A stretch of DNA of 64,000 nucleotides, taken from assembly GCF_001412655.1 (NCBI RefSeq), contig NZ_CP012996.1, forward strand, positions 4,774,001 through 4,838,000, given 5' to 3'. The stretch comes from Pedobacter sp. PACM 27299 (lineage in GTDB: Bacteria > Bacteroidota > Bacteroidia > Sphingobacteriales > Sphingobacteriaceae). Under the pieces are notes generated by a model. The model was not told the origin of the DNA. It was given only the letters and a program-made list of their open reading frames with translations, and did no database searches. Both the position numbers and the translations under genes were made by a program. Positions 57,914-64,000 of this stretch are shown piece by piece (positions within the stretch are counted from its first letter, which is position 1; the number at the start of each line of letters is the position of its first letter).

Positions 57914-58120
57914 ATGATAGAATTCAAATTAGAAGGTGAGTTTATTCCACTCATTCAGTTGCTAAAAGCAACTTCACTAGTACAAAGTGGTGGCGAAGCA
58001 CAAACAGTTGTAGAAGACGGTTTGGTAAGATATAATGGCAAAGTAGACTTCCGTAAGAGGTTGAAAGTACGCGTAGGCGATGTAATTAGCTTTATGGGTC
58101 AACAAATAACCGTAATTTAA
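57914..58120 (+). CDS. S4-domain RNA-binding protein (YbcJ-like)
   Basis: Starting at ATG 57914 (just after a -7 box) the protein has 68 residues and is essentially one S4 domain: FIPLIQLLKATSLVQSGGEAQTVVEDGLVRYNGKVDFRKRLKVRVGDVI. It lacks the signal or extra domains seen in larger S4 proteins and matches the YbcJ/YaaA-like small RNA-binding group. Its stop and the aroB start overlap by one base (TAATG), so the two are co-translated. A link between RNA binding and aroB is not established. Confidence 0.9.
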   Translation: MIEFKLEGEFIPLIQLLKATSLVQSGGEAQTVVEDGLVRYNGKVDFRKRLKVRVGDVISFMGQQITVI

Positions 58121-59184
58121 TGAACGTTATAGAAAGCTCAGGCCATAACATCCACTTTGAATCGGAACTTGCGCCATTAGCACAAATCATAGAAGAGGGT
58201 AACTACAGTAAGGTTTTTATCTTTGTAGACAGGAATACATCAGAATTTTGTTTGCCGCTGTTGCAGGGAATGCTGGACGATTATACTAATTTCGATCTAA
58301 TTGAAACCGACCCTGGAGAAGAGAACAAAAACATCGATTTTTGTATTGGTATCTGGAAAACCTTATTAGATTTTGAAGCAGATCGCAAATGTTTGATGAT
58401 TAACCTTGGTGGAGGTGTGATTACAGATATGGGTGGGTTCATTGCATCAACTTATAAAAGGGGCATTGATTTCATCAACATCCCTACTACCTTATTGGCA
58501 CAAGTAGACGCTTCTGTAGGCGGAAAAACAGGTATCGATATTGATAATGTAAAGAATATGGTAGGCACATTTGCTCTTCCACAAGCTGTATTTATCGAAA
58601 CATCCTTCCTAAAAACTCTGCCGGAAAGAGAATTGCTATCTGGATTTGCGGAAATGATCAAGCATGGTTTGATTGTGGATGCCGCTTATTACGAGCGTTT
58701 AAAAGTTGCAGACTATAAAAACATTGCTCCAATTGAAGTACACCGTTCGGTAGAGATCAAGAATGAAGTAGTGACTGAGGATCCTCAGGAGAAAGGTCGC
58801 CGTAAAATCTTAAACTTTGGTCATACGATCGGTCATGCCGTAGAAAGTTATGCCCTGATTAATGATAAAGCGCCGCTGACCCATGGGGAGGCTATCGCCA
58901 TAGGAATGGTTGCAGAAGCTTACTTATCCAGCACAAATAACACGCTGACTTCTGAAGAGCTGGAAGATATTACCAGGTACATCCTTAGCATTTACCCTGC
59001 ATATCACATCAAAAAGGAAAGCTTTACTGACCTTTTAGGTTTCATGCAGAGCGATAAAAAGAACGAACATGGACAAATTATGTTTTCTTTACTCAGCAAA
59101 ATTGGTGTTTGCGACTATAATTGTATCGTTACAGAAAAGGATATTTTAGAGGCTTTAGCTTACTATAACAATCAGGCTAAATAG
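58120..59184 (+). CDS. aroB: 3-Dehydroquinate synthase
   Basis: The 354-residue enzyme converts DAHP to 3-dehydroquinate, the second step of the shikimate pathway, with NAD and a divalent metal. Seen in the sequence are the NAD-binding LGGGVITDMGGFIASTYKRGIDF, TLLAQVDASVGGKTGID, the metal ligands in GFAEMIKHGL, KILNFGHTIGHAVE and LTHGEAIAIGM. All belong to AroB. It is translationally coupled to the small S4 protein gene and has no other aro gene adjacent downstream for 400 bases. Confidence 0.97.
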   Translation: MNVIESSGHNIHFESELAPLAQIIEEGNYSKVFIFVDRNTSEFCLPLLQGMLDDYTNFDLIETDPGEENKNIDFCIGIWKTLLDFEADRKCLMINLGGGVITDMGGFIASTYKRGIDFINIPTTLLAQVDASVGGKTGIDIDNVKNMVGTFALPQAVFIETSFLKTLPERELLSGFAEMIKHGLIVDAAYYERLKVADYKNIAPIEVHRSVEIKNEVVTEDPQEKGRRKILNFGHTIGHAVESYALINDKAPLTHGEAIAIGMVAEAYLSSTNNTLTSEELEDITRYILSIYPAYHIKKESFTDLLGFMQSDKKNEHGQIMFSLLSKIGVCDYNCIVTEKDILEALAYYNNQAK

Positions 59185-59314
59185 TGCGTTAAATAGATTT
59201 TTACTGCATTATTTTATAAAATAATTGTCGGCCTGTCTTTCAGAAAACACCTAATGTTTTGTGATACAATGAATAACAACCGACACACCATAAATAATTT
59301 TTTTAAAGAAAGTA

Positions 59315-59344
59315 TTGACAAATTAAATTTTGTTAGTACATTTG
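59315..59344 (+). promoter_or_regulatory. Promoter of the pheA-aro operon leader
   Basis: TTG (59315-59317), a 19-base spacer and TACATTTG (59337-59344, exact TAnnTTTG). Transcription should start near 59350, giving a short leader before the leader-peptide ATG at 59373. Confidence 0.8.
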
Positions 59345-59372
59345 GAAAAACGAAAACGAAAAAACAATCGAG

Positions 59373-59435
59373 ATGAAAAATGTTACTACATATTGGTTTG
59401 GTTACTTTTACTACTTTAGTAAGAGCCGGGACTGA
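59373..59435 (+). CDS. Aromatic-rich attenuator leader peptide
   Basis: A 20-codon open frame, MKNVTTYWFGYFYYFSKSRD, from ATG 59373 to TGA 59433-59435. Eight of the 20 codons are aromatic (four Tyr, three Phe, one Trp), concentrated in the nine residues YWFGYFYYF (codons 7-15). It starts about 23 bases after the predicted transcription start and its last codons form the second pairing segment of the attenuator. The composition and position match leader peptides of the trp, phe and his attenuators, where ribosome stalling at scarce charged tRNA sets transcription. Too short for ordinary gene calling. Confidence 0.92.
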   Translation: MKNVTTYWFGYFYYFSKSRD

Positions 59436-59504
59436 TATGCAACATAAATCATAAGATAAGAGTGTATATGAAAAGTCCCGGCCTAAAGCCGGGACTTTTT
59501 TTTT
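59425..59504 (+). promoter_or_regulatory. Transcription attenuator of the pheA-aro operon (antiterminator/terminator)
   Basis: Three segments compete. Segment 2 (59425-59433, GCCGGGACT) overlaps the end and stop of the leader peptide. Segment 3 (59474-59482, AGTCCCGGC) is its complement. Segment 4 (59488-59496, GCCGGGACT) is identical to segment 2. Pairing 3:4 gives a 9-bp stem extended by A/T pairs (59471-59482 with 59488-59499) that runs into T's to 59504, an intrinsic terminator. Pairing 2:3 is the antiterminator. A ribosome stalled at the aromatic codons leaves segment 2 free, so transcription continues; one that reaches the stop covers it, and the terminator forms. Confidence 0.92.
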
Positions 59505-59588
59505 AAAAAAAATTTTGGACCCCGCAGAAGAACAGCAATACCATCCTTCCGCAAGCGATAAGAACCACAGAAAATTCAATTAGGCAAA

Positions 59589-60425
59589 ATGAAACAGAAA
59601 AAAACAAGAGTAGCAATTCAAGGTATTAAAGCGTCATTTCATGAAGAAGCCGCTTTCAAGTTCTTCGGAAAAGACATTGAAACCATAGAATGTAATTCTT
59701 TTAAGCAGACTTGCGAAAGCCTGGAAAACAAGCAGTCTGATTTTGTAATCATGGCTATTGAAAACTCTATTGCGGGTAGCCTTTTACCAAACTACACGCT
59801 AATCCGTGAGTACAATTTCGCCATCGTTGGTGAGGTTTACCTGCCGATTCAATTGCACCTGATGGCTTTGCCAGGGGTTAAATTTGAAGACATTAAATTT
59901 GCGACTTCCCACCCTATTGCGATTCGTCAATGTGTAGATTTCTTCGATGATTTCCCACACATCCAGGTGATTGAAAGCAATGATACTGCAGCTTGTGCAA
60001 AACGCATTAAAGAAGAACAACTAACTGATACCGTGGCTATCGCAAATACATTAGCTGCAGAATTATACGGACTAAATATCATTGAAAGAAGAATTGAGTC
60101 CAACAAAAAGAATTATACCCGTTTCCTAGTGTTAAAAAAAGACAAAACAGACGATCTGCCAGAAATCAACAAAGCATCTATCTGCTTCCAGGTAGGTAAC
60201 CATGTTGGTGCCTTATCTAAAGTGCTCAACATCTTTGCGGAACAGGAAGTGAACTTGACAAAAATCCAAAGTATGCCGGTTCTTGGAAAAAGAAATGAAT
60301 ACTACTTCTATGTAGATATGGAATGGAACAGCAATGAGCAATATGACAAAGCCATCCGCCAAACTTTAAAATATACGGTCAACTTCAATATCATGGGAGA
60401 ATACCTAAGAAACGACAAAGTATAA
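59589..60425 (+). CDS. pheA: Prephenate dehydratase
   Basis: The 278-residue enzyme converts prephenate to phenylpyruvate, the committed step to phenylalanine. The PDT motifs are VAIQGIKASFHEEAAFKFF, FVIMAIENSIAGSLLPNY, LYGLNIIERRIESNKKNYTRFLVL (with the catalytic Thr in TRF). An ACT domain follows (about 195-275: ICFQVGNHVGALSKVLNIFAEQEVNLTKIQSMP), which normally binds phenylalanine. It is the first gene after the aromatic attenuator and shares the operon with the DAHP synthase. No tyrA or aminotransferase is present in the window. Confidence 0.96.
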   Translation: MKQKKTRVAIQGIKASFHEEAAFKFFGKDIETIECNSFKQTCESLENKQSDFVIMAIENSIAGSLLPNYTLIREYNFAIVGEVYLPIQLHLMALPGVKFEDIKFATSHPIAIRQCVDFFDDFPHIQVIESNDTAACAKRIKEEQLTDTVAIANTLAAELYGLNIIERRIESNKKNYTRFLVLKKDKTDDLPEINKASICFQVGNHVGALSKVLNIFAEQEVNLTKIQSMPVLGKRNEYYFYVDMEWNSNEQYDKAIRQTLKYTVNFNIMGEYLRNDKV

Positions 60426-60491: not shown

Positions 60492-61631
60492 ATGAAATTA
60501 CAATTGAACATCCAACCAATCAGTACTTGGTTGAACACCAACAACGAACCACTAATCATTTCAGGACCATGCAGTGCAGAAACTGAAGAACAATTGTTAA
60601 CTACCGCACATTTACTAGCTGCAACAGGTAAAGTATCTGTACTTAGAGCTGGTATCTGGAAGCCTCGTACCCGTCCAGGAGAATTCGAAGGTATCGGAAG
60701 CATTGGATTAGAGTGGTTGAAAAGAGCAAAAGCAGAAACAGGCTTACCTACTGCTGTAGAAGTTGCCAACGCAAAACATGTGGAAGAAGCTTTAGCAGCT
60801 GGTGTAGACATCCTTTGGATTGGCGCACGTTCAACTGTAAATCCATTTTGTGTACAGGAAATTGCTGACGCTTTAAGAGGTGTTGACGTTCCAGTATTGG
60901 TTAAAAACCCAGTTAATCCTGATCTTCAATTGTGGATTGGTGCATTAGAGCGTATCAATGGTGCTGGTATCACTAAATTAGGTGCGATTCACCGTGGTTT
61001 CTCTTCATTCGAGAAAAGCTCATTCCGTAACGAACCAATGTGGGAACTTGCGATTCAATTGAAAACATTATGTCCTGATCTTCCGATCATCAACGACCCA
61101 AGTCATATCTGCGGTAACCGCGAATTAATCCCTTACATCTCACAAAAAGCATTGGATTTAGACATGCAAGGTCTAATGATTGAGTCACATGTTGACCCAT
61201 CAGTAGCTTGGACAGATGCTAAACAACAAGTGACTCCTGCAGCTTTAAGCGAGCTTGTAGAGCGTTTAACTGTTCGTGAACCAGAATCTCAAAACGAAGC
61301 ATTTGTAGATCAATTGGCTGATTTACGTAAGCAGATCGACAAAATTGACGATCAGTTGTTACAGAAATTAGGTGAGCGTATGGCGATCGTTGGTAAAATT
61401 GGTGAGTTCAAACGTGACAACCAGGTAACGATCCTACAAGTTAACCGTTGGGATTCGATCATGAATAAAGGTAAGGCATTTGCAAAGGCTTTGAAATTAG
61501 ACCTGAGCTTTACCGAGAAATTCTTAGAATTGGTTCACGGTGAGTCTATCCGTAAACAAACAGAAATTATGAATGCTGGCAAAGCAGAAAAAGGTCTTGC
61601 AGCAGAAACACATACAGAAGTTAAATCTTAA
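60492..61631 (+). CDS. Bifunctional DAHP synthase/chorismate mutase
   Basis: The 379-residue protein is a fusion. Residues about 20-265 are a type I-beta DAHP synthase: PLIISGPCSAET, LRAGIWKPRTRPGEFEG, VEVANAKHVEEALAAGVDILWIGARSTVNPF, LVKNPVNPD, LGAIHRGFSS, PIINDPSHICG and GLMIESHVDP. Residues about 275-365 are an AroQ-type chorismate mutase: LADLRKQIDKIDDQLLQKLGERMAIVGKIGEFKRD. The first step and the branch step of aromatic synthesis are thus linked, the arrangement common in Bacteroidota. It follows pheA (66 bases) and is under the same attenuator. Confidence 0.95.
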   Translation: MKLQLNIQPISTWLNTNNEPLIISGPCSAETEEQLLTTAHLLAATGKVSVLRAGIWKPRTRPGEFEGIGSIGLEWLKRAKAETGLPTAVEVANAKHVEEALAAGVDILWIGARSTVNPFCVQEIADALRGVDVPVLVKNPVNPDLQLWIGALERINGAGITKLGAIHRGFSSFEKSSFRNEPMWELAIQLKTLCPDLPIINDPSHICGNRELIPYISQKALDLDMQGLMIESHVDPSVAWTDAKQQVTPAALSELVERLTVREPESQNEAFVDQLADLRKQIDKIDDQLLQKLGERMAIVGKIGEFKRDNQVTILQVNRWDSIMNKGKAFAKALKLDLSFTEKFLELVHGESIRKQTEIMNAGKAEKGLAAETHTEVKS

Positions 61632-61633
61632 GA

Positions 61634-62887
61634 ATGAGTAAGCATGCACTTGTTTCTTTTACCGGAAACACAGAAATCCATACAGAGATCACCCTTACGG
61701 GTTCAAAAAGCGAGTGCAACAGGGCATTAATCATTAGTGCTTCAAGTAAAGGAGCGGTAAAAGTAGAGAATATGTCTATCGCTGCCGATTCCGTAACACT
61801 TGAACGCATCTTAAATCAGATTTCAACCGCAGCTCCACATCAACAAACCGTTGATGTGGGACCAGCGGGTACTGCCATGCGCTTTTTAACGGCTTACCTC
61901 CCTACTCTTCCAGGTCAGTTTTTACTGACTGGTACCGAAAGAATGAAACAACGTCCGATCGGTATTTTAGCAGAAGCTTTGAAAGCAGTAGGCGCGGATA
62001 TCAGCTATGCTGAGCAAGAAGGCTTCCCACCGTTGAACATCCAGGGTCCATTAAAACAAACTCAGGCAACTGTGAAAATTAAGGGAGACATCAGCAGTCA
62101 GTATATTTCTGCCTTGCTAATGATTGCCCCGACTTTGGAACAGGGTCTTACTTTACAGATTGAGGGCGAATTAACCTCCCTTCCTTATGTCAACATGACG
62201 CTGAATATGCTGGAAGAAGCTGGTATCAGTCATTCCTGGGATGGTCAAAATATCAGCATCAAACCACAGCCTTTTAAAGCGGCAACGCTAGTAGTAGAGC
62301 CAGATTGGAGCGCTGCTTCTTACTGGTACAGCATTGCTTGTCTGTCTGAAAAGGCAGAAATCTCGCTTCCTTATTTAAAGGAAAAAAGCTTGCAGGGCGA
62401 TAGCCGAATCCGATCTATCATGACTGCTTTTGGTGTAAAAACAGCAACTACAGCTCAAGGAATTACGCTTAGCTCTACTGATAAAAATTTCGGTGAAGAA
62501 GTTTTAGACCTTAAAGATTGTCCGGATTTAGCACAAACGATTATCGTATGTGCGGCTGCATTGAAGCAAAACCTTGCTTTCACTGGACTGGAGACCTTAA
62601 AAATTAAGGAAACAGACCGCGTTAAGGCGTTACAAACTGAACTTGCAAAAATTGGCGTAACTTTAAATGAAGACAACCTGGTTTATACTTTAAACTGCGA
62701 AAACCTTCATTTCCCTGAGCGTGTTACTTTCAGCACTTATGAAGATCACCGCATGGCGATGGCTTTTGCTCCGCTTAGTTTACTGATCAAAGAAGTGGTA
62801 TTGAAAGAAATGGATGTGGTAGAGAAATCATATCCAGACTTTTGGAAAGACCTGGAAAAAGCAGGATTTACAGTTACAGTGATTTAA
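61634..62887 (+). CDS. aroA: 3-Phosphoshikimate 1-carboxyvinyltransferase (EPSP synthase)
   Basis: The 417-residue enzyme adds enolpyruvyl to shikimate-3-phosphate, the sixth shikimate step. It shows the two-domain pattern: LTGSKSECNRALIISA, GPAGTAMRFLTAYL, the phosphate-binding GTERMKQRPIGILAEAL, QYISALLMIAPTL, and near the C-terminus IKETDRVKALQTEL and YEDHRMAMAFAPL with the substrate-binding Arg and His. It starts two bases after the DAHP synthase stop and is followed by aroC, so it belongs to the attenuated operon. Confidence 0.96.
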   Translation: MSKHALVSFTGNTEIHTEITLTGSKSECNRALIISASSKGAVKVENMSIAADSVTLERILNQISTAAPHQQTVDVGPAGTAMRFLTAYLPTLPGQFLLTGTERMKQRPIGILAEALKAVGADISYAEQEGFPPLNIQGPLKQTQATVKIKGDISSQYISALLMIAPTLEQGLTLQIEGELTSLPYVNMTLNMLEEAGISHSWDGQNISIKPQPFKAATLVVEPDWSAASYWYSIACLSEKAEISLPYLKEKSLQGDSRIRSIMTAFGVKTATTAQGITLSSTDKNFGEEVLDLKDCPDLAQTIIVCAAALKQNLAFTGLETLKIKETDRVKALQTELAKIGVTLNEDNLVYTLNCENLHFPERVTFSTYEDHRMAMAFAPLSLLIKEVVLKEMDVVEKSYPDFWKDLEKAGFTVTVI

Positions 62888-62911: not shown

Positions 62912-64000
62912 ATGGCAGGTAATACATTCGGACAATTATTTCGCATCAGCACTTTTGGCGAATCACATGGTGCAGCTATTGGTGTTATTTTAGATGGCTG
63001 TCCGGCACAATTGCCCATAGATCTGGATTTTATTCAGTCGGAACTGGATAAACGCAGACCCGGACAATCGAAAATTACCACACAAAGGAAAGAAAGCGAT
63101 ACCGTTCAAATTCTTTCCGGCGTATTTGAAGGTAAGAGTACTGGAACTCCTATTGCAATGTTGATTCCAAATGAAGACCAGCGCAGTAAAGACTATAGTC
63201 ACAATACCGATGTTTACCGTCCTTCTCATGCAGATTATACTTATGATGCAAAATATGGTATCCGCGATCACCGTGGTGGTGGCCGTTCCTCTGCAAGAGA
63301 AACTGCTGCACGCGTAGCTGCGGGTGCGATTGCCAAGTTACTTTTAAAGCACCATGGCATTGAAATCTTTGCTCATGTATCTGCGGTAGGCAAAATTAAT
63401 GCACCAAATCTGGAAGCTTCTTTAACTGTAGATCAGTTATTGGAGATCAGAGAAGAAAACATCGTACGTTGCGCAGATCCGGCTACGGCAAAGGAAATGA
63501 TCGAGTGTATTGATGGTATTAGAAAAGATGGAGATACTATTGGTGGAAAAGTAAGTTGTATCATCAGAAACTGTCCTGTTGGCTTAGGCGAGCCTGTTTT
63601 TGATAAATTACATGCAGAGCTTGGAAAAGCAATGCTGAGCATCAATGCGGTACATGGCTTTGAATATGGTTCAGGATTCAGCGGAAGCGAAATGAGGGGA
63701 TCAGAACACAATGATATCTTCCTTGTTGGAAAAGATCAGCCTAAAACACTAACCAACTTCTCTGGAGGAATTCAGGGAGGTATTGCTAATGGCATGGAAA
63801 TCGACTTTACAGTTGCCTTTAAGCCTGTAGCAACGATTATGCACAACCAACAGACCATTAATGCAGCGGGTGAAGCCGCAGAAATTAAAGGGAAAGGTCG
63901 TCATGATCCATGTGTGGTACCTCGTGCAGTCGTGATTGTAGAAGCAATGGCAGCTTTGGTATTAGCAGATCAGCTTCTTAGAAATAAGAGCAGCAAATTG
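62912..64000 (+). CDS. aroC: Chorismate synthase (3' end outside window)
   Basis: The open frame from ATG 62912 runs to the window edge (363 codons) with no stop. Motifs of AroC are clear: [69 protein letters not shown] and [12 protein letters not shown], plus [17 protein letters not shown] near the end. The length is close to the usual 360-odd residues, so only a few codons are missing. It converts EPSP to chorismate with reduced FMN. It follows aroA by 24 bases and is the fourth gene of the operon. Confidence 0.97.

Follow-up and report, generated by a model that had tools for sequence, protein, structure and literature searches.

The closest described relatives of the element reported here are leader-peptide attenuators of Escherichia coli. 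The pheA attenuator (pheL; Rfam family RF01859) places a leader with Phe codons, together with overlapping antiterminator and terminator structures, upstream of pheA; the trp attenuator follows a 1:2, 2:3 and 3:4 pairing logic and has its stop codon beside segment 2; and the ilvGMEDA and thrABC leaders each respond to more than one amino acid from a branched pathway. For Bacteroidetes and Chlorobi, attenuators are said to have been predicted by Vitreschak in 2004. One article (PMC4833913) cites a comparative study by Lopatovskaya (2010), and others describe a predicted cis-regulatory RNA of Bacteroidetes, Bacteroid-trp (RF01692; PMC2864571), and short frames in Bacteroides thetaiotaomicron that are reminiscent of attenuation leaders (PMC7366714). 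Most pertinent here, PMC9723704 presents strong clues that amino-acid operons are attenuated through leader peptides, along with structured elements upstream of pheA and hisG that are conserved in other Flavobacteriaceae genera and lack Rfam hits.

The locus that we describe shares with each of the E. coli systems the features just listed, with 1:2 as a putative helix, and departs from each. It differs from pheL in that Tyr and Phe codons are roughly equally frequent, and in that aroF/CM, aroA and aroC follow; it differs from the trp attenuator in that the control codons are those for Phe and Tyr, the trpE of this genome having a Trp leader of its own; and its likeness to the ilvGMEDA and thrABC leaders is one of logic, the amino acids being different. 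With the Flavobacteriaceae pheA element it has in common the gene concerned, conservation across genera and the lack of an Rfam hit, and the two are likely the same, a comparison made by description, since the section of PMC9723704 on that element gives neither sequence nor specificity. The remark in a first-pass annotation of this DNA that such attenuators are less well described in Bacteroidota is to that extent partly overtaken by the same work. Against RF01859 (Phe_leader) the locus scores 23.9 bits, short of the gathering cut-off of 55, and RF01692 has no match in this genome among the 150 of 1065 first-look candidates that were scored, while a control genome, Bacteroides ihuae, does match. 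A search of positions 59100-59700 against Rfam at a permissive threshold gave 17 matches, all of them short of the family's gathering score; most reflect a hairpin plus a run of T residues, and they were discarded.

The window, as we call the whole stretch of 64,000 nucleotides that was analysed, spans positions 4774001-4838000 of the ~6.15-Mb, single-contig genome of Pedobacter sp. PACM 27299. On its forward strand, aroB (58120-59184) lies upstream of the leader, which is followed by pheA, encoding prephenate dehydratase (59589-60425), a DAHP synthase/chorismate mutase fusion (aroF/CM, 60492-61631), aroA, encoding EPSP synthase (61634-62887), and aroC, encoding chorismate synthase (62912-64000), which extends slightly beyond the window end; the next gene lies about 90 bases further on, on the opposite strand. 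Pfam bears out the identities originally given to these four downstream genes, the pheA product having a PDT domain and an ACT domain exactly at cut-off, and the NCBIfam equivalog cut-offs were reached neither by this protein nor by the DAHP synthase/chorismate mutase. Over residues 1-278 the pheA protein matches its counterparts in Pedobacter polysacchareus and Pedobacter sp. N36a with 100% identity. By these Pfam identities, the operon's genes make the cognate aromatic amino acids. A pheA protein search of named genomes yielded 80 loci, and 77 of them have hits to all four genes in the order pheA, aroF/CM, aroA, aroC; two of the other three end at contig ends, and one (L054) has no aroC match in the stretch examined. 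The four genes probably form one transcript. Ahead of the leader, aroB is found in 56 of the 80 loci. A search with PF00793 also matched a 272-aa open frame elsewhere (L001), and in the 420 bases before that match no frame has at least five aromatics in ten codons.

Between aroB and pheA the window carries, all on the forward strand, a compact series of features that were located by direct reading and by script. A promoter (59315-59344) consists of TTG at 59315-59317, a 19-base spacer, and TACATTTG at 59337-59344, an arrangement that we take to be of the Bacteroidota -33/-7 type. Written as a pattern from the window sequence, it occurs once in the genome, and its backwards control not at all. 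The leader frame MKNVTTYWFGYFYYFSKSRD opens with ATG at 59373 and closes with a TGA stop at 59433-59435 (59373-59435 in all); its 20 codons include four for Tyr, three for Phe and one for Trp, concentrated in the control codons YWFGYFYYF at 59391-59417. Segment 2, GCCGGGACT (59425-59433), is identical to segment 4, GCCGGGACT (59488-59496), and complementary to segment 3, AGTCCCGGC (59474-59482), so that 2:3 and 3:4 are alternatives; the 3:4 hairpin has a predicted stability of -19.9 kcal/mol and runs into nine T residues at 59496-59504. In all these respects (the full promoter, the 20-codon leader with eight aromatic codons, the identity of segments 2 and 4, and the terminal U-tract) the first-pass annotation proves exact. 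To its list we add a putative protector helix, 1:2, in which segment 1 (59389-59399) can pair with 59429-59439 around an inner hairpin (59405-59411 paired to 59419-59425). We also add pairing of ATATGCA (59435-59441) with 59463-59469, which prolongs 2:3 inwards in part.

These features are best read, at a probability of roughly 0.9, as a ribosome-mediated transcription attenuator that gauges how much charged Phe-tRNA and Tyr-tRNA is available, with charged Trp-tRNA as a possible further input in this species. RNA polymerase would start near 59350, judging from the position of the promoter, with a ribosome translating the leader behind it. When Phe and Tyr are ample, the ribosome would reach the stop codon and there, because of the spacing of segment 2 to that codon, should cover segment 2, allowing 3:4 to form and transcription to terminate at 59496-59504. 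When either amino acid is short, the ribosome would stall among the control codons and open 1:2; segment 2, thus freed, would pair with segment 3, and polymerase would continue into pheA-aroF/CM-aroA-aroC. An untranslated leader would fold as 1:2 plus 3:4, a predicted off state. Stalling early in the aromatic run would leave segment 2 free for 2:3 (on), and stalling at the last aromatic codon would, given the footprint of a ribosome, cover part of it; that the inner extension of 2:3 is relevant to the latter situation is our conjecture.

One alternative holds that the hairpin is a plain terminator, constitutive or belonging to aroB, beside a frame that arose by chance. The presence of aroB upstream on the same strand would suit this, yet the promoter-like site separates the leader from aroB and recurs in most of 60 aligned rows, with TACATTTG in 45, TAnnTTTG in 54 and TTGACA in 37 (certain rows end short of the -33 part). 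Chance, moreover, is excluded by the shuffles. Dinucleotide shuffles of the fold at 59373-59505 (z -6.35) were never equally stable (0/200), and in 3000 such shuffles of 59185-59588 an ATG frame with at least eight aromatics in ten codons never appeared, one with at least six appeared in 20, and at least six aromatics combined with a terminator scoring 30 or more in none (that of the window scores 38). Chance is likewise excluded by the two-sided changes described below, and we consider this explanation barely credible. A covariance model built from the same alignment, which contains the window sequence itself, found one strong match when 150 of 3366 first-look candidates in the 6.1-Mb genome were scored; it lies at the leader locus (E 1.1e-25), and the runner-up among the 23 matches listed is this hairpin read from the opposite strand (E 0.09).

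Comparison with relatives, which had been proposed as a check, reveals that the aromatic frame and the alternative pairings are kept, with matching changes in 2:3 and 3:4, and so supports the attenuator logic of the E. coli trp and pheA leaders that was originally ascribed to this locus. Of the 80 named loci, 79 could be parsed, and all 79 have the leader and a terminator after it; the remaining one (L013) is cut by a contig end, with the peptide tail and terminator still visible. A search of the family matched 107 of 121 genomes, from which 28 new loci were examined. Among the genus and family loci, whose genus sets overlap in genomes and are not independent, an ATG leader is present in 54 of 58 and a leader with a TTG start in the other four, so that all 58 parsed loci, the window's own included, have one. 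Besides the window sequence, the 60-row alignment takes in 59 parsed loci, the rest of the 79, mostly near-duplicates, being omitted; the shuffles used to judge covariation in it ignore the relatedness of its rows. In the terminator helix 3:4, 97.1% of cells are paired, and two-sided changes occur in 6 of 12 pairs (30 cells); none of 500 shuffles reached as high on any of five measures, and slid versions were at most 65% paired. The antiterminator 2:3 is 85.3% paired overall, 94.7% in its nine-pair core and 72.8% in the inner extension. Two-sided changes occur in 4 of the 9 core pairs and in 7 of all 16 pairs (equalled by 9/500 shuffles), affecting 25 cells (equalled by none of 500), and the number of pair types was reached by 56/500. 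In 2:3 the core helix is strong and the inner extension weak. The helix 1:2 is 94.1% paired as against 38-50% when slid, and exceeds all 500 shuffles in paired cells, in cells with two-sided changes and in covariation score; the number of pairs with two-sided changes was, however, reached by 81/500 shuffles and that of pair types by 387/500, and since two of the five measures are therefore no better than shuffles, we regard this helix as conserved rather than proven. The aromatic codons that lie inside it may limit change there.

Locus by locus, segment 3 has an upstream partner of at least six consecutive pairs in 75 of 77 loci and of five in the other two (two loci with a mis-picked hairpin, L058 and L062, being left out), and a run of at least nine in 60 of 79. 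When segment 3 was swapped for that of a locus with a different core, the mean 2:3 score fell from 22.9 to 21.0, the locus's own segment scoring higher in 73 of 77; the drop is small because the cores are much alike. One locus (L024) displays a concerted three-way change, its segments 2, 3 and 4 reading GCCAGGACT, AGTCCTGGC and GCCAGGACT, with Arg replaced by Gln in the peptide. The last aromatic codon ends 7 bases ahead of segment 2 in 51 of 75 loci (range 7 to 11). In 62 of these 75, segment 2 begins 8-12 bases ahead of the point where the stop codon ends, in four 20-21 bases ahead of it and in nine 2-4 bases past it. In the latter (L061, L067, L069, L073, L075, L076, L078, L079 and L081) the leader stops 2-4 bases before segment 2 rather than at its end, and the AGTAAG/GGTAAG common to them (alignment columns 190-211) suggests a shift of frame relative to segment 2.

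Two records in these sets deserve separate mention. In a record titled as a Legionellaceae metagenome-assembled genome (L064), the leader is almost the same as the Daejeonella one (L057) and pheA resembles those of Sphingobacteriaceae; the contig is therefore probably mis-binned. A record titled Flavihumibacter soli shares an identical leader with a genome placed in the window's own family (L055/L136), and the genus in its title may, on this evidence, be misplaced.

Beyond the family, we surveyed the class Bacteroidia by a fixed rule, requiring an ATG frame with at least six Phe, Tyr or Trp residues in ten codons no more than 420 bases from the dehydratase domain. Fifty-two genomes matched and 49 were parsed (all but L137, G146 and G163), six of them from the window's family. 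Among the other 43, 25 genomes, distributed over 13 families, have an aromatic leader upstream of pheA, whereas the rule picked out a leader in just 20 of 2150 shuffles and on one of the 43 opposite strands; by the same rule it is missing in 18 of the 43, including all six members of one family (f12), and two leaders with five aromatics (L126, L141) fell below the rule and were not counted. Outside the class no leader was found by this rule in 28 genomes, the best-scoring of 95 with a match. Of the 25 leaders from other families, 17 combine a terminator with six or more consecutive 2:3 pairs and two combine it with five; for the remaining six the script found no terminator or a weak one.

The initial claim that one leader senses Tyr, Phe and Trp together holds for Phe and Tyr and is weak for Trp. 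Codons for both Phe and Tyr are present in every distinct leader of three sets (47/47, 42/42 and 25/25, the first two sharing genomes and the third drawn from other families), whereas a Trp codon occurs in the leader core in 25/47, 15/42 and 4/25, and is thus absent from the core in 21 of the 25 other-family leaders. Conservation of all three codons, as a joint sensor requires, is not what these sets show. Among 31 distinct leaders of 20 residues, positions 7, 8, 9 and 11-15 are aromatic in 31, 31, 29, 30, 31, 31, 31 and 23, position 15 being non-aromatic in the remaining eight, and position 8, the site of Trp in the window, is Trp in 19, Tyr in 10 and Phe in 2, so that Tyr or Phe takes its place in 12. 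The trpE locus of the same genome, furthermore, has a Trp leader of its own, MINNIHTWQWRSNSEKSFVVASCTL, with a GC-rich terminator (L233, G000:C1 about 277047-277200). In a set of 30 trpE loci, one of which (L253) was not parsed, a leader with at least two Trp codons in twelve precedes 28 of 29, as against 1 of 29 on the reverse strand, and by script 24 of these 28 leaders have a terminator-like hairpin. Because Phe and Tyr codons occur in every pheA leader tallied, Trp is variable and trpE has its own Trp leader, we read the pheA element as a sensor of Phe or Tyr. That a shortage of Trp alone would be enough for read-through is nevertheless conceivable in this species, in that a stall at TGG (59394-59396) should free segment 2, and aroF, aroA and aroC also feed Trp synthesis; weighed against the patchy Trp codon and the trpE leader, we hold this three-way reading to be doubtful, and the Trp codon of the window species may be a third input.

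A comparable leader, specific for His, lies upstream of hisG on the minus strand (MNQILNHHLHLHHRLSAMYM; L221/L263, G000:C1 about 1258030-1258160), and one was found in 29 of 30 hisG loci and in none on the reverse strand; the hisG set, like that for trpE, comes mostly from the window's genus. By script, no GC-rich terminator was found before hisG in the 25 loci of that genus; what they have is a hairpin of the CATCGCC..GGCGATG type where the leader ends, plus an AT-rich one, GTTTTGTACTTCAAAAC, ahead of T-rich sequence. Three hisG loci from other families (L289, L291, L292) have an ordinary terminator. Neither NCBIfam nor Pfam has an entry for any of the three leader peptides (pheA, trpE, hisG).

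A further possibility is that the ribosome is arrested by its own nascent peptide, a free aromatic amino acid serving as ligand, in the manner of TnaC, whose ribosomes are stalled by free Trp (PMC8429421); the response could then be reversed, to excess rather than shortage. The strong conservation of the core YWFGYFYYF within the family would be expected of such a peptide. Yet aromatic residues interchange at positions 8, 9, 14 and 15, leaders of other families keep the density of aromatics and not their order, and in place of a conserved C-terminus before a fixed stop the C-terminus varies, with the stop coming earlier in the nine loci mentioned above. The placement of segment 2 in 62 of 75 loci is, in addition, that which an attenuator working by codon stalling needs. 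We therefore judge peptide-mediated arrest highly improbable, and favor stalling at Phe and Tyr codons.

The mechanism proposed for the pheA leader is a textbook one; what the present analysis adds is its exact anatomy, the two-sided changes, the joint specificity for Phe and Tyr, and the breadth of its occurrence. We found no description of joint reading of Phe and Tyr by one leader in open-licence PMC articles, and make no claim of its absence from print. From a broader perspective, it can be argued, with the odds evenly poised, that several ribosome-mediated attenuators of distinct amino-acid specificity came down to Bacteroidia together from an early ancestor, reading Phe and Tyr in either-or fashion at pheA, Trp at trpE and His at hisG. 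The order of Phe and Tyr codons at pheA would then have drifted freely, a Trp codon would have been gained only in some lineages, and the his leader of Pedobacter would have lost or replaced its GC-rich terminator, so that it may act by another route.

The pheA leader thus offers an exact, testable example from the Bacteroidota of a control device worked out mostly in Proteobacteria. Such an attenuator would account for how Bacteroidota set the common aromatic pathway, and the findings suggest that the small open frames without annotation that lie ahead of amino-acid operons in these bacteria frequently serve in control and are not genes.
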